Source: Rhizobacter sp. (GTDB lineage Bacteria; Pseudomonadota; Gammaproteobacteria; Burkholderiales; Burkholderiaceae_C). Taken from it: DNA of 64,000 nucleotides. The position numbers and the translations under genes were made by a program. Positions 53,919 through 63,339 of this stretch are shown here, one piece after another. Position 1 is the stretch's first letter; every line of letters begins with the position of its first letter. The notes below the pieces were generated by a model. It was not told the origin of the DNA and searched no databases. It saw only the letters and a program-made list of their open reading frames with translations. The DNA lies in contig JANXWV010000104.1 in the NCBI GenBank assembly GCA_025350965.1, forward strand, positions 1-64,000. Direction: 5' to 3'.

Positions 53919-54476
53919 ATGAAGTTCATCACCTCTCACGACAAGCCCCGCGACCCGTGGCACGCGATCAACGGCGACGACGGCCCGATGGTCACTCTCA
54001 CGCCCGCGCCGCACAGCCTGCTGACCTTGCTGCAATGGCACGGCGTGCGCAGCAGCTGGCCGGCCGGCATGCCGGTGGGCGTGCTGCTTGCCAACGACGT
54101 GGAAGTGGCCGAGCTCGCCGCCGACCTGCCGCGCCTGGCACTCATCGCGTTGCAGTTCCCGAAGTGGACCGACGGTCGCGCCTACAGCCAGGCCCGCGTG
54201 CTGCGCTCGCGCTACCGTTACGCTGGTGAAGTGCGCGCGACCGGTGAAGTGCTGGTCGACATGCTGCCGCTGCTGCACCGCACCGGCTTCGACGCGGTGG
54301 CGATGCGCGCCGACCAGTCGCGCGACGCCGCGGAACGCGCGTTGGCGTTCTTCCCCGGCCACTACCAGGGCGATGCGCAGGACAACCGGCCGCTGTTCGC
54401 GCTGCCGCCCGAGCAAGTGGCCGTGCTGTCGCATGCGCCGGTGCGCGAGTTTGTCGACGAAGGGGGCTCGATATGA
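53919..54476 (+). CDS. DUF934 family protein, sulfite reduction accessory
   Basis: A 185-residue DUF934 protein. The pattern LQFPKWTDGRAYSQARVLRS and RYRYAGEVRATGEVLVDML is diagnostic for the family, and FFPGHYQGDAQDNRPLF closes the domain. Its role is not biochemically settled; it almost always sits between cysI and cysH, suggesting it serves the sulfite reductase. Its stop overlaps the cysH start by four bases. Confidence 0.92.
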   Translation: MKFITSHDKPRDPWHAINGDDGPMVTLTPAPHSLLTLLQWHGVRSSWPAGMPVGVLLANDVEVAELAADLPRLALIALQFPKWTDGRAYSQARVLRSRYRYAGEVRATGEVLVDMLPLLHRTGFDAVAMRADQSRDAAERALAFFPGHYQGDAQDNRPLFALPPEQVAVLSHAPVREFVDEGGSI

Positions 54477-55228
54477 ACGCCGTCTCGCTCTACGCCAAGG
54501 CGACAGCGGGCTTCGATGCCCGCGTGGCAAACACGCTCGCCGTGTTACAGCGCGCGGCGGCCGAACACCCGGGCAAGGTCGTGCAAGCCACCAGCCTCGG
54601 CGCCGAGGACATGGTTCTCACCGACCTGATCGCGCGGCACCACCTGCCCATCGCCATCGGCACGCTCGAAACAGGCAAGCTGCACGCACAGACCGTCGCA
54701 CTCATCGGCACCATCGAGCAGCACTACAGCTTGAACGTCGAGGTGTATCGCCCCGTCAGCGAAACCGTCGTGCACTTCGTGCGCGAGCACGGCGAGCGCG
54801 CCATGTACCAGAGCATCGAGTTGCGCAAGGCCTGCTGCGGCATGCGCAAGCTCGAACCCTTGTCGCGCATGTTGGCCGAGCGCAGCGCCTGGGTCACGGG
54901 CATGCGGCGCGAGCAGTCGAACAACCGCGGCACCGTCGAGTTCAGTGAAACCGACGACAAGGGCCGCGCCAAGTTCAACCCACTGGCCGACTGGACCTGG
55001 GCCGATGTGTGGCACTACATCGAGCTGCACCAGGTTCCCTACAACCCGCTGCACGACGAGTTCATGCCCAGCATCGGCTGCGAGCCTTGCACGCGCGCCA
55101 TCGCCGTGGGTGAAGACTTCCGCGCCGGCCGCTGGTGGTGGGAAGACGAAGGCGCGAAGGAGTGCGGCCTGCACGTCCATGAGCCGGAACAAACCACCGC
55201 CCAGGTATCGATGATTGGACCCGCTTGA
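54473..55228 (+). CDS. cysH: Adenylylsulfate (APS) reductase
   Basis: A 251-residue thioredoxin-dependent reductase that turns APS to sulfite. The two Cys pairs of the [4Fe-4S] APS reductase type are present (LRKACCGMRKLEPLSRML; SIGCEPCTRAIAVGEDF), with the active Cys in AKECGLHVHEPEQ at the end. The Cys pairs separate it from PAPS reductases. This matches the operon, which has CysD and CysN but no CysC APS kinase. Overlaps its neighbours on both sides. Confidence 0.94.
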   Translation: MNAVSLYAKATAGFDARVANTLAVLQRAAAEHPGKVVQATSLGAEDMVLTDLIARHHLPIAIGTLETGKLHAQTVALIGTIEQHYSLNVEVYRPVSETVVHFVREHGERAMYQSIELRKACCGMRKLEPLSRMLAERSAWVTGMRREQSNNRGTVEFSETDDKGRAKFNPLADWTWADVWHYIELHQVPYNPLHDEFMPSIGCEPCTRAIAVGEDFRAGRWWWEDEGAKECGLHVHEPEQTTAQVSMIGPA

Positions 55229-56187
55229 TGAACGCCCCTTTGAAGATCGACGAGTTGCTACCGCAACTCGACCACACGCACCTCGACTGGCTCGAAGAAG
55301 AAGCCATCTTCATCCTGCGCGAAACGGTGGCTGCGTTCGAGCGCCCGGCCCTGCTGTTCTCGGGCGGGAAAGACTCGTGCGTTGTGCTGCGCCTGGCCGA
55401 GAAGGCGTTCAAGAACAAGAGCGACACCGGTGACTGGAAAGGCCGCCTGCCCTTCCCGCTGCTGCACGTGGACACGGGCCACAACTTCCCTGAAGTCATC
55501 ACGTTCCGCGACAAGCGCGTGGCCGAGATGGGCGAGCGGCTCGTTATCGGCCACCTCGAAGATTCGATCAAGCGCGGCACGGTGCGCTTGAGCCACCCAC
55601 TCGAGTCCCGCAACGGCCACCAGACCGTGGCACTCCTCGAAGCCATCGAAGAACACCGCTTCGACGTGCTGATGGGCGGCGCCCGGCGCGACGAGGAAAA
55701 GGCGCGCGCGAAAGAGCGCATCTTCAGCCACCGCGACACCTTCGGCCAATGGCAGCCGAAGGAGCAACGCCCCGAACTCTGGACGCTGTTCAACACGCGC
55801 ATTCGCCCCGGCGAGCACATGCGCGCGTTCCCGATCAGCAACTGGACCGAGCTCGACGTGTGGCTCTACATCGCCCGCGAGAACATCCCGCTCCCTGGCC
55901 TGTACTTCGCACACGACCGCCAGGTGATCCGCCGCAAGGGCCTGCTGGTGCCACTGACCGAGGTCACGCCGGTCGAGGCCGGCGAGTCGGTCGAGACCGT
56001 CGAGGTTCGCTTCAGAACTGTCGGGGACATGACCTGCACCTGCCCGGTCGAAAGCCCGGCGCGCGATGCAACCGAGATCGTCGCCGAGACGCTGCAAGTC
56101 ACCGTGAGCGAACGCGGCGCCACCCGCATGGACGACCGCACCTCCGAAGCCTCGATGGAACGGCGCAAAAAAGAAGGCTACTTTTGA
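55228..56187 (+). CDS. cysD: Sulfate adenylyltransferase subunit 2
   Basis: A 319-residue ATP sulfurylase catalytic subunit. The PP-loop for ATP is LFSGGKDSCVVLRLAEKAF; further signatures are LPFPLLHVDTGHNFPEVITF, MGGARRDEEKARAKERIFS and the C-terminal TSEASMERRKKEGYF. It forms APS from sulfate and ATP with CysN. The ATG shares one base with the cysH stop and its own stop shares one with cysN. A TTG one codon earlier is possible but not needed. Confidence 0.96.
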   Translation: MNAPLKIDELLPQLDHTHLDWLEEEAIFILRETVAAFERPALLFSGGKDSCVVLRLAEKAFKNKSDTGDWKGRLPFPLLHVDTGHNFPEVITFRDKRVAEMGERLVIGHLEDSIKRGTVRLSHPLESRNGHQTVALLEAIEEHRFDVLMGGARRDEEKARAKERIFSHRDTFGQWQPKEQRPELWTLFNTRIRPGEHMRAFPISNWTELDVWLYIARENIPLPGLYFAHDRQVIRRKGLLVPLTEVTPVEAGESVETVEVRFRTVGDMTCTCPVESPARDATEIVAETLQVTVSERGATRMDDRTSEASMERRKKEGYF

Positions 56188-57518
56188 TGAACGCAGTTCC
56201 GAACCAAGCCACCGGCCCGCTGGTGCCTGACCACCGCGCCCTGCGCTTCCTGACCGCCGGCAGCGTGGACGACGGCAAGAGCACGCTGATCGGCCGCCTG
56301 CTCTACGACAGCCGCGCCATCCTGGCCGACCAGCTCGACACGCTCGAGAAGCGCGCCGCCGGTGCGCCCATCGATTTGTCCTTGCTCACCGATGGCCTGG
56401 AGGCCGAGCGCGAGCAAGGCATCACCATCGACGTGGCCTACCGCTACTTCGCCACCAAGTCGCGCAAGTTCATCATTGCCGACGCACCGGGCCACGAGCA
56501 GTACACGCGCAACATGGTCACGGCAGCTGCCGGCAGCGACGCGGCAGTGGTGCTGGTCGACATCACCAAGCTCGACTGGGCGCGCGGCACAGACCCGCTG
56601 TTGGCGCCCGCAGACCGTCTCGTCGATCTGCTTCCACAAACGCGCCGCCACTCGTTGCTCGCCCACCTGCTGCGCGTGCCGAGCATCGTGTTCGCGATCA
56701 ACAAGCTCGACGCCGTGGCCGACCCGGCACAAGCCTATGCCGCCGTGCGAGAAGCGCTGCTCGCGTTTGCGAAAGAAGCCGGCATCGAGGTCGCGGGCGT
56801 GATCCCCGTCTCGGCGCTGCGCGGCGACAACGTCACCCAACCGCTCGACGTGCCGTGGTATCGGGGGCCGTCGCTGCTGCAACTGCTGGAATGCCTGCCG
56901 ACCGCGCAAGAACGCAAGGCCGGCGACTTGCTGATTCCGGTGCAGTACGTGGCCAAAGACAGCGACGGCGTCGGCGACAAACCGCGCACGCTGTGGGGCC
57001 GCATCGCGCACGGCAGCGTGAAGGCCGGCGATGCAGTGCAGTTGTTCCCGAGCGGGCAGACGGCCGTGGTGGCCGCCGTGCGCATCGCCGGCAGCGTGGT
57101 CGGGCAGGCTGAAGCCGGCCAATCGGCAGGCCTGGAACTCGACCGCCAGCTCGACGTGTCGCGCGGCGACTGGATCGCCACGCCGAACACCCTTCACCCC
57201 ACGAACCGCTTCTCGGCCACGCTGGCCTGGCTCGACACCGAGCCGGCCGTCGTCGGCCGGAAATACCAGCTTCGCCACGGCAACCGCTGGGTGCAGGCGC
57301 GCATCACCGCCATTGAAAGCCGGCTCGACATCCACACGCTGGCACCCATCGACGCGCATGAACTGGCGGTCAACGAGATCGGCCGCGTCGTCGTCGAAAC
57401 CCAGCAACCGCTGCCCATCGAAGCGTACGAGACCAACCGTGTCGGCGGGGCGATGATCGTTGTCGACCCGGCCAGCAACCGCACCAGCGGCGCGCTGCTG
57501 GTCAAGGCTGCGGCCTGA
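56187..57518 (+). CDS. cysN: Sulfate adenylyltransferase subunit 1 (GTPase)
   Basis: A 443-residue EF-Tu-like GTPase that drives ATP sulfurylase. GTP motifs: P-loop GSVDDGKSTLIGRLLYDSR, switch II DAPGHEQYTRNM, and NKLD near residue 173. Two beta-barrel domains follow. There is no C-terminal APS kinase (CysC) fusion, and length agrees with stand-alone CysN. The spacer to the next gene is 67 bases, the widest gap in the operon. Confidence 0.95.
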   Translation: MNAVPNQATGPLVPDHRALRFLTAGSVDDGKSTLIGRLLYDSRAILADQLDTLEKRAAGAPIDLSLLTDGLEAEREQGITIDVAYRYFATKSRKFIIADAPGHEQYTRNMVTAAAGSDAAVVLVDITKLDWARGTDPLLAPADRLVDLLPQTRRHSLLAHLLRVPSIVFAINKLDAVADPAQAYAAVREALLAFAKEAGIEVAGVIPVSALRGDNVTQPLDVPWYRGPSLLQLLECLPTAQERKAGDLLIPVQYVAKDSDGVGDKPRTLWGRIAHGSVKAGDAVQLFPSGQTAVVAAVRIAGSVVGQAEAGQSAGLELDRQLDVSRGDWIATPNTLHPTNRFSATLAWLDTEPAVVGRKYQLRHGNRWVQARITAIESRLDIHTLAPIDAHELAVNEIGRVVVETQQPLPIEAYETNRVGGAMIVVDPASNRTSGALLVKAAA

Positions 57519-57585
57519 TTCGCGTGACGCACGGGATGCACCTGTTGCGCGTGATGCACCCGCGAAACGCGGCGCGAGCGGCGCG

Positions 57586-58425
57586 ATGAACGCCCCCGCA
57601 GGCGAGGTCGTCTTCATCAGCGCCGGCCCCGGCGCAGCCGACTTGATCACCGTGCGCGGCGCGCGCCAGCTGGCACGCGCCGACGTGGTGCTGTTCGACG
57701 CCCTCACCGACCCGGCCCTGCGCGAGTGGGCACCTCATGCGCAGTGGGTCGACGTGGGCAAGCGCGGCTTTGCCGACAGCACTGGGCAGGCCCTCATCAA
57801 CGCGCTGCTCGTCAAGCACGCCAGCGCCGGGCACATCGTGGCAAGGCTCAAGGGTGGCGACGCCAGCCTGTTCGGCCGGCTCGAAGAAGAGCTTCAGGCG
57901 CTGGCCGCCGCCGGCGTGCGCTGCGAGGTGGTGCCTGGCGTGACCGCCGCGATCGCCGCAGCCGCCGCCACACTGCGCCCGCTCACCCGGCGCGGCAGTG
58001 GCCGCAGCGTGAGCCTGACCACTGCCATGACGCGTGAGGGAGAGCTCAGTGCCTCGCGCAGCGCCGACACCGAGGTGTTCTACATGGCGGGCCGGCAACT
58101 GGCGGCATTGGTGCACCGGCTGCAGGCTGCCGGCTGGCCTGCTGCCACGCCGTGCAGCGTGGTCTCGCGCGCCGGCTGGCCAGACGCGCGCCACACCGAC
58201 CACAGCGTCGCCACGCTCGCAAACGCCTCGGTTCTCCACGCGGGCCGGCCGACGGTCGTGACTGTTGGCGCAGGCGCAGCGCCACTGGCCCGGCCATTGC
58301 ATGCCACCCAGATCGGGGAGCGCACCGAGCCCGAATCCAGCGCCGATGCACCATTGCGGCATCTAGAATCCGCCCCCGGAGGCGTCGCCGCTTCCGACCC
58401 AACCACAGCTGAGTTCACGCCATGA
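57586..58425 (+). CDS. cobA: Uroporphyrinogen-III C-methyltransferase
   Basis: A 279-residue SUMT that methylates uroporphyrinogen III twice with SAM to precorrin-2, the branch to siroheme and cobalamin. Motifs: [66 protein letters not shown] and, later, [10 protein letters not shown]-like. The oxidase/ferrochelatase part of CysG is missing, so siroheme completion needs another gene. Position beside cysI suggests it serves the sulfite reductase cofactor. Stop overlaps fdxA start (ATGA). Confidence 0.93.
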
Positions 58426-58745
58426 CCCACGTCGTCCTCGAATCCTGCATCCGCTGCAAGTACACCGACTGCGTCGATGTCTGCCCCGTCGATTGCTTCC
58501 GCGAGGGCCCGAACTTCCTCACCATCGACCCCGACGAATGCATCGACTGCGCGGTGTGCATTCCCGAGTGCCCGGTCAACGCCATCGTGCCGGAAGAAGA
58601 CGTGCCGGCCGACCAGCAGCACATGATCAAGCTCAACGGCGACCTGGCGAAGAACTGGCCCAGCATCACCAAGCGCAAGACGCCGCTGCCCGATGCCGAT
58701 GACTGGAAAGACAAGACCGGCAAGCTCGGCGAACTCGTCAAATGA
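58422..58745 (+). CDS. fdxA: 7Fe ferredoxin FdxA
   Basis: A 107-residue ferredoxin with one [3Fe-4S] and one [4Fe-4S] cluster: [18 protein letters not shown] and [13 protein letters not shown]. Length and the acidic, Lys-containing C-terminal extension agree with FdxA of proteobacteria. It overlaps the cobA stop and lies just before a ferredoxin reductase gene, a likely electron chain from NADPH to sulfite reductase. Confidence 0.95.
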
Positions 58746-58752
58746 GTCGTCG

Positions 58753-59826
58753 GTGACCTGCCCCACGGCGGCGCCGACAGAGACCGATGCACTCGTCATC
58801 GGCGCCGGCCCGGTGGGCTTGTTCCAGGTGTTCGAGCTGGGGCTGCTCGAGATCGGCGCCCACGTGGTCGACTCGTTGCCCTACGCGGGCGGCCAGTGCA
58901 CCGCGCTGTATGCCGACAAGGCGATCTACGACATTCCGGGCCTGCCGCGCTGCACCGGGCGCGAACTGATCGAACGGCTGCAACGCCAGATCGCACCGTT
59001 CGAGGCACCCCTGCACCTGGGCCAGGAGGTGCGCACCGTGCAGGCCCAGGCCGACGGGCGCTTCCTGATCGAGTCGAGCGCCGGCACCCGGTGGCTGGCA
59101 CGCGCGGTGATCGTGGCGGGCGGCGTGGGGTCGTTCCAGCCACGCCGCTTGAAGATCGACGGCGTCGCAGCCTTCGAGGGAGCGCAGCTGCGCTACCACG
59201 CCGACGGTGACGTGGCGGGCCGGCAGGTCGTGATCATTGGCGACGGCGACGGCGCGCTCGAACAAGCCATTCGGCTCACTGCGCCGGGCCCGCAACAGGC
59301 CGCGACCGTGACCTTGATGCACCGGCGCGATGAGTTCAAGGCGGCACCTGCCACGCTGGCTGCAGTGCAAGCGCTGCGCGCATCGGGGCGTTTGCACTTC
59401 GTTGCGGCACAGGCTACCGGCATCACCACAAGCACCACCCAGGGCGCGAACCACCTCACCGGGCTCGTCGTGCAGCAACCCGACGGTGCACGGCGCACCT
59501 TGGCGCTCGATGTTCTGTTCGTGCTCACCGGCCTGGCGCCCAAGCTCGGCCCCATCGCAGAGTGGGGCCTGGCGCTCGAACGCAAGCAGGTCGTCGTCGA
59601 CACGGCCACCTTCGAGACCGGCACGCCCGGCCTCTTCGCGGTCGGCGACGTGAACACCTACCCGGGCAAGAAGAAGCTCATCCTCAGCGGCTTTCACGAA
59701 GCCGCGCTCGCGGCCTACGGCGTGGCAGCGCGCCTTCGCCCGGGTACCCCGGAGCCGCTTGAATACACCACCAGCAGCACGCGCCTGCACCGCTTGCTGA
59801 AGGTCGACCCGGAAGCCGGGCCATAA
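58753..59826 (+). CDS. Ferredoxin-NADP+ reductase (thioredoxin-reductase-like type)
   Basis: A 357-residue FAD/NAD(P) oxidoreductase. FAD loop ALVIGAGPVGLFQVFELGLL, the segment LPYAGGQCTALYADKAIYDI, NADP loop VVIIGDGDGALEQAIRL and the late FAD motif GLFAVGDVNTYPGKKKLILS all match bacterial FNRs of the TrxR-like group, which lack the redox-active Cys pair. There is no ATG in place; the best start is GTG seven bases after the fdxA stop. It should reduce FdxA. Confidence 0.9.
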   Translation: MTCPTAAPTETDALVIGAGPVGLFQVFELGLLEIGAHVVDSLPYAGGQCTALYADKAIYDIPGLPRCTGRELIERLQRQIAPFEAPLHLGQEVRTVQAQADGRFLIESSAGTRWLARAVIVAGGVGSFQPRRLKIDGVAAFEGAQLRYHADGDVAGRQVVIIGDGDGALEQAIRLTAPGPQQAATVTLMHRRDEFKAAPATLAAVQALRASGRLHFVAAQATGITTSTTQGANHLTGLVVQQPDGARRTLALDVLFVLTGLAPKLGPIAEWGLALERKQVVVDTATFETGTPGLFAVGDVNTYPGKKKLILSGFHEAALAAYGVAARLRPGTPEPLEYTTSSTRLHRLLKVDPEAGP

Positions 59827-59869
59827 TCCGCCCCGCCGCGCGGTCTGTTGCGCGGCTCGTTTAGTCACA

Positions 59870-59968
59870 TTCGCTAGGGGTGTTGGACGCATCGAAGCTC
59901 GCTTCGAATCGTTCGACTGAGACAGTCCCTTTGAACCTGATTGAGGTAATCCTCGCGCAGGGAAGCAT
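59870..59968 (+). promoter_or_regulatory. TPP (thi-box) riboswitch
   Basis: The conserved thiamine pyrophosphate aptamer elements occur in order: AGGGGTG (59876), CTGAGA (59917-59922), GAACCTGA (59933-59940), a TTGAGGTAATCCTC stem-loop (from 59941), and GCGCAGGGAAGC at the 3' end. The P3 arm is lengthened by a hairpin (TCGAAGCTCGCTTCGA). It ends about 65 bases before the TonB receptor ATG. No intrinsic terminator is obvious, so control is likely at translation. Confidence 0.92.
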
Positions 59969-60032
59969 GGTCACCACGACGCGGTCTGCGCCGGGGTGGC
60001 CCGCCGACCTGCCATCGCAACCTGGACCCACG

Positions 60033-62183
60033 ATGGCACTCTCCTCGAACATTCTTCTTCGCACACCCGTCGCTGCCGCCGCGTGCCTTGCCGCGTTCGG
60101 TGCCCTCGCTCAAAGCGCACCCACGCAGCTTGCGCCAGTCGTCGTCACCGGCCGCACCGCGCCGGCGTTGAACGTCGGCGGCTGGGGCGACATGGCGCTT
60201 GACAAGACGCCACTGCAAGCCAGCGTCTTCAGCAGCGAACGGCTCAAGGACAGCGGCGCCACGCGCCTGGCCGACCTGGCGGGCTTCGACCCCGCCGTGA
60301 GCGACGCCTACAACAGCGAGGGCTACTACGACTTTCTCACCGTGCGCGGGTTCGTGCTCGACAACCGCTTCAACTTCCGGCGCGACGGCCTGCCCATCAA
60401 CGCCGAAACGGCCATCCCGCTCGACAACAAGTCGCGCATCGAAATCCTCAAGGGCACGAGCGGCATGCAGGCCGGCACCAGTGCGCCAGGCGGGCTGGTG
60501 AACTATGTCGTCAAGCGGCCGCTGGACACACCGCTGCGCTCGATCGGCATCGAGTGGCGCCAAGCCGGCAGCGTGGCCGGCGCGGTCGACCTGAGCCAGC
60601 GCTTCGGCGAAGGCCAGGCCTTCGGTGTGCGCGTGAACGCGGCGGCGGCGCACCTCGACCCGCTGCTGCGCTCGGCCATCGGCACGCGCAGCGTCTTTGC
60701 ACTGGCGGCCGACTGGCGCCTGAGCGCCGACACGCTGATCGAGGCCGAGGTCGAAACCAGCCACCGCGCGCAGCCCAGCCAGCCCGGCTTCAGCATGCTG
60801 GGCGATGCGGTGCCGTCGCCCACCACAACCGACCGTGCGCGCATCAACCTGAACAACCAGCCGTGGTCGCTGCCGGTGGTGTTCGACGCGACGACCGCGT
60901 CGCTGCGCTGGCAACAGCGCCTGACTGCCGACTGGCGAGCGACCGTGCACATCGCCACACAGCAACTGCGCACCGACGACCGCGTGGCGTTCCCGTTCGG
61001 TTGCACCGACCCGAACGGCACCTACTACGCCGACCGCTACTGCCCCGACGGCACCTTCGACCTGTACGACTTCCGTAGCGAGAACGAACGCCGCCGCAGC
61101 GATGTGATCGACGTGTCGCTGCAAGGCAAGCTGCGTACCGGCGTGCTGGCGCATGCGCTGACCGCCGGCGTGCAGCAAAGCAGCGTCCGCAACCGCTTCC
61201 AGCAGCAGGCCTACAACTACGTCGGCACCGGCAACGTGCAAGGCACGACCGTGACAAGTGCCGACCCGAGCCTGACCGACGAGAACACCAACCGCGACGA
61301 ACGCTCGACCGAGTTGTACCTGCGCGACGCCATCGCCATCAATGCGCAACTCACCGCCTGGGTGGGCCTGCGACACACGCGGCTGCACCGCGAGAGCGTG
61401 CGCACCGACGGCTCGCGCGCCACCGACTACACGCAGGCCCTGACCACCCCGTGGCTGGCGCTGAGCCATGCCTTTGCGGCGGATCAACTGGTCTATGCCA
61501 GCTGGGGGCGCGGCGTGCAGTCCGAGGTGGCGCCAAACCGCAGCCGCTACACCAACGCCGGTGAGGCACTGCCCGCGCTGAAGAGCCGGCAGGCCGAGAT
61601 CGGCCTGAAGGGCTCGAGCGAGCACTTCGAGTGGAACGCTGCGGCGTTCGACATCGTGCAACCGCTCTTCACCGACACCGGCCTGTGCACCGTGGCGGGC
61701 AGTTGCACGCGTGCTGTCGACGGCACCGAGCACCATCGCGGCATCGAAGCCTCGGGCGCGGTACGCGACGGTGCATGGGTGCTGCGCGCCGGCACGCAGT
61801 GGTTGCGCCCGCGCCGCGAAGGCAGCCAGACGCCCGGCATCAACGGGCTCGCGCCGACCAACGTGCCGGCCACCACCGCCAAGCTCGACGCGAGCTACGC
61901 GGTGGCCAGCGTCCCTGGTCTGGTGTTGATGGGCAAGGTGACCTTTGAAGCCCGGCGCATGGTGCTGCCCGACAACAGCGTGTCCATCCCCGGCCTGACG
62001 CATGCGGACGCGAGCCTGCGCTACGAGACACGGCTCGCGGCCACCACGCTGACCTGGCGCGCCGGCATCGACAACCTGTTCGACAAGCAGGCCTGGCGCG
62101 AAGCGCCGTACCAGTTCGGCCACGTGTACCTGTTCCCGCTGGCGCCGCGCACGGCGCGCGTGTCGTTGCAGGTCGATCTGTAG
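60033..62183 (+). CDS. TonB-dependent outer-membrane receptor under TPP riboswitch control
   Basis: A 716-residue outer-membrane transporter. A signal peptide (ending ALAQSAP) is followed by a plug domain ([57 protein letters not shown]) and a beta barrel with the FhuA/FecA-like C-terminal pattern ([20 protein letters not shown]). By sequence it resembles ferric siderophore receptors. The TPP riboswitch points instead to thiamine, a thiamine precursor or a thiamine derivative as substrate. The last residue is Leu rather than the usual aromatic. The FAD oxidoreductase gene begins 10 bases later. Confidence 0.92.
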
Positions 62184-62193
62184 ACTGGACCGC

Positions 62194-63339
62194 ATGGACC
62201 ACGTCGACGCCCTCGTCATTGGTGCCGGCGTGGTGGGCTTGTCAGTCGCGCGTGCGCTGGCGCGTTCGGGGCTGGAAACCATCGTGGCCGAGGCCGAGCC
62301 GGCCATCGGCACCGGTGTCAGCGCGCGAAACAGCGAGGTCATCCACGCGGGGCTCTACTACGCCCCCGGTTCGCTGAAGGCGCGGCTGTGCGTGCGCGGC
62401 AATGCGCTGCTCTATGCCTATTGCGCCGAGCGCGGCGTGGCTCATTCGCGCTGCGGCAAGCTGGTGGTGGCCACCCAGGCTTCGCAGCATACGGCGCTCG
62501 TTGAGCTGGCACGCACCGCCGCTGCAAACGGTGTGGCGGTGCAGCCGCTCAGTGCCGCCGAAGCGACTGCGCTGGAGCCTGCGTTGCACTGCACCGCAGC
62601 GTTGGCATCACCGAGCACCGGCATCGTCGACAGCCATGGCCTGATGCTCGCCCTGCAAGGCGATATCGAACGGGACGGCGGCGCGGTTGCAGTGTGCTCG
62701 AGCGTCGTCGCGATTCGCTTCGAGCCCGGTTCGCCGGCCGTGGTGCAGGTGGATTCACCGTCGGGTGGGTTCGAGCTGGCGGCCCGCATCGTCGTCAATG
62801 CCGCCGGCCTGCTTGCGTGCAGCATGGCGCGGCGCATGCACGGTCTGGCGCCACAGCACGTGCCGCGCGAGCGCTTCGCCAAGGGGAGTTATTTCGCGCT
62901 CGCCGGCCGGTCACCGTTCACCCGCCTCGTCTACCCTGCCCCCGATGGCGCCTGGCTTGGCGTGCACCTCACGCTCGACCTCGCGGGGCAAGCGCGCTTC
63001 GGGCCCGACCTGGAATGGCTCGCCGACGGCACCGAGCCCGCGTCCATCGACTATCACGTGAACGCGGAGCGTGCGCAGGCCTTCGAGCAGGCCATCCGGC
63101 GCTACTGGCCGGCTTTGCGCGACGGTGCCTTGCAACCCGCCTACAGCGGCGTGCGCCCGAAGATCCACACGCCGGGCGAGCCTGCGCCCGACTTCCGCAT
63201 CGACGGCCCGGCGCGGCACGGCGTGCCGGGGCTCGTGAACCTGTTCGGCATCGAGTCACCGGGCCTGACGAGCGCGCTGGCCATCGGCGAGCATGTCGCC
63301 GGTCTGGTGGGCGGTCTGGTGGGCGCGGGGGTTCCGTAA
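62194..63339 (+). CDS. FAD-dependent oxidoreductase (L-2-hydroxyglutarate oxidase LhgO-like)
   Basis: A 381-residue flavoprotein of the DAO superfamily. FAD motif [20 protein letters not shown]; the segment [20 protein letters not shown] and [20 protein letters not shown] are diagnostic for LhgO-like enzymes. C-terminal [20 protein letters not shown] and [20 protein letters not shown] close the domain. L-2-hydroxyglutarate is one possible substrate. It lies in the same direction and close behind the TPP-controlled receptor, so it could be part of the riboswitch transcript. Confidence 0.88.

Follow-up and report, generated by a model that had tools for sequence, protein, structure and literature searches.

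In the window, by which we mean the whole 64-kb stretch of DNA that was analysed, a cmscan search with all Rfam families returns a single match at curated threshold, an RF00059 TPP aptamer (E = 5e-8), which lies upstream of a gene for a TonB-dependent receptor (Table 1). The original prediction had read the blocks of a TPP aptamer in front of this receptor and proposed running RF00059 on positions 59860–59980. The covariance model does match on the forward strand, at 59866–59980, with a score (55.0 against 54.3 bits) that is barely above threshold, a point to be held against the main reading developed below. Searched alone, the model finds the window aptamer as the sole TPP match in the 4.31-Mb genome (E = 7.9e-10). 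A model built from 20 aptamers scores it at 104 bits, a match by construction because the window aptamer is one of the 20. Across these 20 aligned sequences CUGAGA, GAACCUGA, GAGGUAAUCC and P4/P5 are near-invariant. The window aptamer lacks the optional stem after CUGAGA, which we take to be P3a, has two non-standard pairs in P1 and carries no insert in J4/5.

Table 1. Features of the receptor locus (positions are those of the window)
Feature	Position	Strand	Details
TPP riboswitch aptamer (RF00059)	59866..59980	+	cmscan 55.0 bits, GA 54.3, model positions 1-105
Expression-platform linker; candidate anti-sequestor strand	59981..60009	+	ends GACC
Start-codon hairpin	60010..60038	+	AUG 60033-60035 in 3' arm
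Hairpin 5' arm	60010-60017		UGCCAUCG
Hairpin loop	60018-60030		
Hairpin 3' arm	60031-60038		CGAUGGCA
TonB-dependent receptor; predicted to transport thiamin or a thiamin phosphate across the outer membrane	60033..62183	+	716 aa
FAD-dependent oxidoreductase (L-2-hydroxyglutarate-oxidase-like)	62194..63339	+	PF01266 195 bits

The receptor ORF as listed opens at a GTG at 59880, inside the aptamer. The start at ATG 60033 that we use instead is supported by the conserved leader hairpin described below, and the N-terminus read from it looks, by eye, like a signal peptide. Both the plug (PF07715) and the barrel (PF00593) score above Pfam cut-offs. As had been foreseen, the sequence by itself would name the protein a siderophore receptor: it scores 257.4 bits with TIGR01783, 'TonB-dependent siderophore receptor' (cut-off 223.5), a membership that assigns a subfamily by sequence and is no proof of a siderophore. 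The AlphaFold model, made with 69 orthologues, has a pLDDT of 91.9 and a pTM of 0.90, and its residues 39–716 align to solved receptors. Among solved structures Foldseek places closest (E 3e-44 to 5e-38) FemA bound to aeruginic acid, BauA and the enantiopyochelin receptor, with VIA Z scores of 44.1 (8s34), 43.9 (6h7v) and 44.5 (3qlb), respectively, over 643–646 residues and identities of 22%, 23% and 19%. Tied within one Z unit, these matches show the fold and not the substrate, and a family missing from the fold lists is not thereby excluded.

The oxidoreductase gene (NF008726 218 bits, under the 299 cut-off) begins 10 nt past the receptor stop and may be co-transcribed with the receptor in the window; beside orthologues, a tblastn search of 80 named loci and 105 sampled regions gave no match to it that reached 60 bits. 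Upstream, positions 54473–59826 hold cysH-, cysD- and cysN-like genes (sulphate assimilation), a uroporphyrinogen-III methyltransferase gene, fdxA and a ferredoxin-NADP-reductase-like gene. The names cysH, cysD, cysN and ferredoxin-NADP-reductase are our presumption from the translations, and the best models for the reductase-like gene are Pyr_redox.

Orthologues, TPP elements and gene order

We surveyed 200 genomes drawn evenly from the family and counted as orthologues all matches of at least 390 bits. The receptor is present in 106 of the 200, and for this family, at least, it is wrong to call such receptors uncommon among betaproteobacteria. The matches next below score 254 bits at about 30–34% identity, apart from one in G089 to the second part of a gene that is split there. 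A TPP element lies upstream of 105 of the 106 orthologues, namely the window and, by the 20-aptamer covariance model (to which its own 20 aptamers match by construction), 104 of the 105 other regions, and upstream of none in six paralogue regions. By pattern, a thi-box is found within 400 nt upstream in 103 of the 105 sampled regions; in L168 it heads an operon, and in L240 none is found upstream.

Among 80 named loci, the TPP motif is upstream in 74, within 400 nt in 47 and at 4.1–5.6 kb in 27, all of them Variovorax. The six remaining loci are of three kinds: the contig begins inside the receptor gene in L033 and L080; it ends inside the thi operon in L041 and L056; and in L065 and L067, as in L240 of the sampled set, a TPP element is not found by Rfam either at E up to 0.1. 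Only one of these last three has a sampled genome (G213), and ThiC and ThiG are both present there, so the receptor may have lost its TPP control in a prototroph. At L244 (G113:C1:1565570 and 1567754) two tandem receptor copies, with 44% and 40% identity to the window receptor, follow a single TPP element; their genome, a single contig of 2.6 Mb, lacks both ThiC and ThiG.

Some relatives carry GC-rich hairpin inserts of 25–89 nt at one aptamer site, the 5' strand of J4/5 between GAACCUG(A/U) and GAGGUAAUCC, where there are normally 2 nt. Such aptamers account for 16 of the 108 motif rows from sampled regions (L163, L170, L172, L173, L174, L181, L183, L193, L195, L197, L200, L235, L238, L239, L245 and L252) and 17 of 75 in the named loci (L002, L003, L006, L054 and others). 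The insert of L054 resembles a duplicated unit. Of three loci that were run against Rfam, L252 and L054 score 37.9 and 36.3 bits, and the aptamer of L174 has no match at E 0.01 or better. Because these scores fall below the threshold of 54.3, insert-bearing TPP switches are undercounted.

In many orthologue loci the receptor is still accompanied by parts of the block that lies upstream of it in the window, in the usual order cysN, cobA, fdxA, ferredoxin-NADP-reductase-like gene, TPP element, receptor. Within 2.6 kb upstream, the reductase-like gene is found in 66 and fdxA in 69 of the 105 sampled regions, and cysN lies within 5 kb in 58. In Variovorax a thiamin operon ends with the receptor gene. 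Locus L016, from Variovorax paradoxus, runs TPP element, PF02133 permease (43 bits), thiO (TIGR02352 233 bits, under the cut-off of 250.8), thiS, thiG, thiE and receptor, with an opposite-strand ORF between permease and thiO that is presumably ThiD. One TPP element precedes the permease–thi operon and a second the receptor in L202, and divergent TPP elements lie between thi genes and receptor in L162, L176 and L224. A ThiG match is found near the receptor in 30 of the 80 named loci and in only 6 of the 105 sampled regions, and the riboswitch is therefore the sole thiamin link in most genomes.

Two candidate partners were rejected. A conserved downstream partner such as an inner-membrane transporter finds no counterpart among the commonest ORF clusters that follow the receptor, which occur in at most 9 of 105 loci and none of which is carrier-like by eye. 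CytX does not qualify as a universal partner, with TIGR02358 above cut-off in none of the 200 genomes and weaker matches in 61.

A conserved hairpin at the start codon

Leaders have in common, 3' of the aptamer, a motif CCUGCCAUCG...CGAUGGCA that pairs across the start codon. When the register is fixed by CCTG plus an in-frame start codon in 104 leaders (the window and 103 others), at least six of the eight hairpin pairs form in 86, compared with 4–11 of 104 in 20 rounds of shuffling; this count was devised after the motif had been seen, and for its control single bases rather than dinucleotides were shuffled. The anchored hairpin is missing from the other 18. Pair t8:-2, which is non-coding, is standard in 77 of the 86 leaders (G-C 46, A-U 20, G-U 5, U-A 4, U-G 1, C-G 1), so that bases on its two sides change in a compensatory way beyond the reach of coding constraint. 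At the neighbouring pair, t7:-1, 67 of the 86 leaders have standard pairing. Without the CCTG condition, a perfect seven-pair hairpin (t2–t8) is found in 63 of 104 leaders, at least two of them (L158, L159) in a register other than that of the motif, and the CC just 5' of the hairpin, outside the stem, is kept in 57–58 of the 63. In the fold of the window leader the hairpin pairs have probabilities of 0.56–1.0, with the start codon paired at about 1.0, and the hairpin folds with a probability above 0.5 in 73 of 85 leaders.

Two free searches for the hairpin, over all in-frame starts, proved too noisy and were set aside. In the first, only 26 of 104 leaders scored above every one of the 20 shuffles (mean score 9.1 as against 7.5 for shuffled leaders), in part because GTGs further along the frame were chosen. 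The second gave six of six outer pairs in 80 of 104 leaders, but the registers were mixed.

Since the conserved, covarying hairpin buries the start codon, control of the receptor is probably translational, by analogy with thiC of E. coli. The nascent leader RNA would bind TPP; with TPP bound, the start-codon hairpin would form and translation of the receptor would stop; and at low TPP the hairpin would be kept from forming and the receptor would be made. The strand expected to compete with the hairpin is a candidate in the linker. Pairing of CCUGC in the platform with GCAGG in P4, which we proposed as the anti-sequestor, is a candidate only: it has a probability of 0.02 in the window ensemble, and duplex predictions for the candidate strand are split across 85 leaders, the best partner being the P1/P2 5' strand in 30 and the P4 3' strand in 16. 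A competing ON structure is thus not seen in the window fold, which counts against the main reading.

Probable thiamin pathway loss and probable substrate

Scoring of the thiamin pathway in the 200 genomes found ThiC in 124, ThiG in 128 (E < 1e-50) and ThiE in 130. The receptor-positive genomes comprise 49 with both ThiC and ThiG, one with ThiC and without ThiG (G205), 56 with neither and none with ThiG alone; the corresponding numbers for receptor-negative genomes are 72, 2, 13 and 7. The receptor is accordingly enriched where both ThiC and ThiG are missing (56/13 versus 50/81, P = 4e-9), also among the 178 better genomes (48/7 versus 49/74, P = 1.6e-9). Within the ThiC-minus genomes, those with the receptor are all ThiG-minus (56 to 0) and those without are 13 ThiG-minus and 7 ThiG-plus (P = 3.5e-5; 1.5e-4 in the better genomes). 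All of these Fisher values ignore kinship. ThiE is absent from 55 of the 56 receptor-positive ThiC-minus genomes (hereafter receptor auxotrophs), the exception being G164, and in 48 of the 56 there is a single TPP match. ThiC, ThiG and ThiE were not found in the window genome, where absences taken alone carry little weight because the assembly is 88% complete and in 155 contigs, nor in its congener G003, listed as 100% complete; weak ThiG-model matches in both (E about 1e-4) were counted as absent.

On a FastTree tree of the 106 receptors, which is a tree of receptors and not of species, there are 21 changes of the ThiC-plus/ThiC-minus label, and starred branches force no fewer than 14 of them. 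The ThiC state has therefore changed often while the receptor stayed. The count does not separate loss from gain; we read it as suggesting that the whole pathway was lost many times in the presence of the receptor. Both members of four same-genus pairs (G114/G217, G030/G181, G020/G175 and G109/G213) carry the receptor, and in each pair one genome has and one lacks ThiC and ThiG, which suggests recent pathway losses. ThiC is present in 50 of the genomes that carry the receptor, which is therefore not confined to auxotrophs.

The reading that we favour, and regard as very probable, is that the protein is produced only under TPP shortage and serves, as a TonB-dependent receptor of the outer membrane, to take up intact thiamin or its phosphates. 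TonB energy would pull the vitamin into the periplasm, a putative inner-membrane carrier would then take it in, and a putative kinase and/or ThiL would convert it to TPP. Uptake of the intact vitamin or its phosphates is the simplest reading of the gene content, which favours it over uptake of HMP because the ThiC-minus genomes with the receptor all lack ThiG and the ThiC-minus/ThiG-plus genomes lack the receptor. The original prediction had the receptor importing thiamine, a precursor or a bound form, and our finding that all but one of the 106 orthologues, and none of six paralogues, have a TPP element upstream is in keeping with it. Its thiamin part is supported, whereas import of the HMP precursor alone does not agree with the absence of the receptor from all seven ThiC-minus/ThiG-plus genomes.

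Import of a precursor, above all of HMP for use with home-made thiazole, is in our judgement very unlikely. CytX-like permeases are predicted to carry HMP, and the Variovorax receptor shares its operon with a PF02133 permease; yet the genomes that would need HMP alone are those seven ThiC-minus/ThiG-plus genomes (which may come from few lineages, two of them falling below the quality cut), and HMP alone would be useless to the 56 ThiC-minus receptor genomes because all 56 lack ThiG and 55 lack ThiE. The co-occurrence of receptor, ThiC and ThiG led us to reject HMP as the main substrate. The genome of L224 (G164) has the receptor and neither ThiC nor ThiG; it retains a CytX-like permease that scores 236 bits, under the cut-off, along with ThiE and three TPP elements, a gene set that hints at salvage of both thiamin halves.

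A siderophore or metal-complex receptor under TPP control, bringing in for example iron or cobalt for thiamin-linked enzymes, is a less likely explanation again. The TIGR01783 match and the nearest solved structures, by which the receptor groups among siderophore receptors in both sequence and fold, speak for it and count against our main reading, and the frequent presence of fdxA and the ferredoxin-NADP-reductase-like gene upstream (see above) points the same way. What argues against it is that the TPP element marks all but one of the orthologues and none of six paralogues, that the receptor is linked to thiOSGE in Variovorax, and that it is enriched where ThiC and ThiG are absent, so that the iron–sulphur cluster of ThiC is no issue. 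In a difference from FemA-, BauA- and enantiopyochelin-type receptors, family searches of six ORFs showed no siderophore genes beside the window receptor.

Least likely of all is a relic riboswitch, with the receptor made whatever the TPP level, as might be argued from the ON structure not found in the window fold and from passages of PMC5613172 in which transcripts of Bacteroides TPP-switch transporters changed little with thiamine, since the aptamer core is near-invariant in 20 aligned sequences, the start-codon hairpin covaries and translational control need not appear as a large transcript change.

For the steps that would follow uptake of thiamin or its phosphates across the outer membrane, we searched for kinases and carriers. 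A search for TPK (PF04263) drew a blank in all 200 genomes; among 14 control genomes it gave matches in 7. In a set of 80 genomes (the 56 receptor auxotrophs and 24 others), ThiK (TIGR02721) is above cut-off in none, with weak matches in 15. ThiL is found in 198 of the 200 genomes at E 0.001 or better, in 194 of them above cut-off, and scores 304 bits in the window genome; its matches are weak or none in G003, G116 and G155, all receptor auxotrophs. ThiB (TIGR01276) reaches its cut-off in none of the 80 genomes. Matches of more than 100 bits occur in G064, G156 and G153, one in G218 is split, and weaker matches, mostly of 20–40 bits, bring the total to 44 of 80; a match above 100 bits is absent from 55 of the 56 receptor auxotrophs. 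A TPP element lies just upstream of the ThiB-like gene in G064, G156 and G218. Both G156 and G218 are ThiC-minus and ThiG-minus without the receptor (G156 keeps ThiE), and there the TPP element with its thiB-like gene looks like an alternative to the receptor.

It is conceivable, though we would not expect it, that the receptor imports TMP or TPP, with or instead of free thiamin, by way of an undescribed inner-membrane route. This possibility arises because the auxotrophs lack ThiE (55 of 56), have no TPK or ThiK above the cut-offs and nearly all keep ThiL. Imported TMP together with ThiL would close the pathway without a thiamin kinase.

Comparison with known systems

Omr1, a putative B1 receptor of other lineages, reportedly goes back to work by Rodionov in 2002. 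The passages of PMC10881298 describe it as a putative TonB-dependent B1 receptor of SAR86 and Flavobacteriales; like the window receptor it is TonB-dependent and near a TPP riboswitch, a likeness drawn from its description. OMthi (BT2390) of Bacteroides thetaiotaomicron and the window receptor are both TonB-dependent under a TPP riboswitch and are likened here by class, not by sequence. Passages of PMC5613172 report that deletion of OMthi raised the thiamine requirement of a biosynthesis mutant, and associate this Bacteroidetes receptor with pnuT and tnr3.

For the mode of control, the comparison is with thiC of E. coli, where, in the passages of PMC5234074, the TPP-bound state places the ribosome-binding site and start codon within a stem-loop that is predicted to block translation; the window hairpin likewise covers the start codon. 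The same passages describe an anti-P1 stem proposed and probed for the ON state of thiC, whereas the window offers a candidate strand only, and they give Rho-dependent termination a part in thiC control. Unlike the thiC switch, the receptor leader would regulate the gene of a predicted transporter.

In passages of Sun et al. 2013 (PMC3766115), Burkholderia and Ralstonia are named as lineages that have no transporters under TPP control. A 'siderophore receptor' by family model, present in about half of the sampled genomes, becomes a probable vitamin B1 receptor and a marker for the way in which thiamin-auxotrophic members of these Burkholderiales may acquire the vitamin. The nearest precedent is a TPP-riboswitch operon of Variovorax whose TonB-dependent receptor was predicted to be a thiamine transporter in the passages of Hessler et al. 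2023 (PMC10409787), and 27 named Variovorax loci carry orthologues of the window receptor downstream of such an operon. The window receptor, by contrast, stands alone with its own riboswitch in a genome where ThiC, ThiG and ThiE were not found. The Hessler passages contain no leader structure and no survey of the receptor beyond Variovorax, and among the matches listed from the open-licence PMC literature no paper deals with the receptor family at large, with the hairpin at the start codon or with the association between receptor and pathway loss. The Variovorax case was already published in 2023, and its relatives fall in the same orthologous group as the window receptor; what is added here is the breadth of that group, the probable repeated loss of the whole pathway, the start-codon hairpin and the argument on the substrate.
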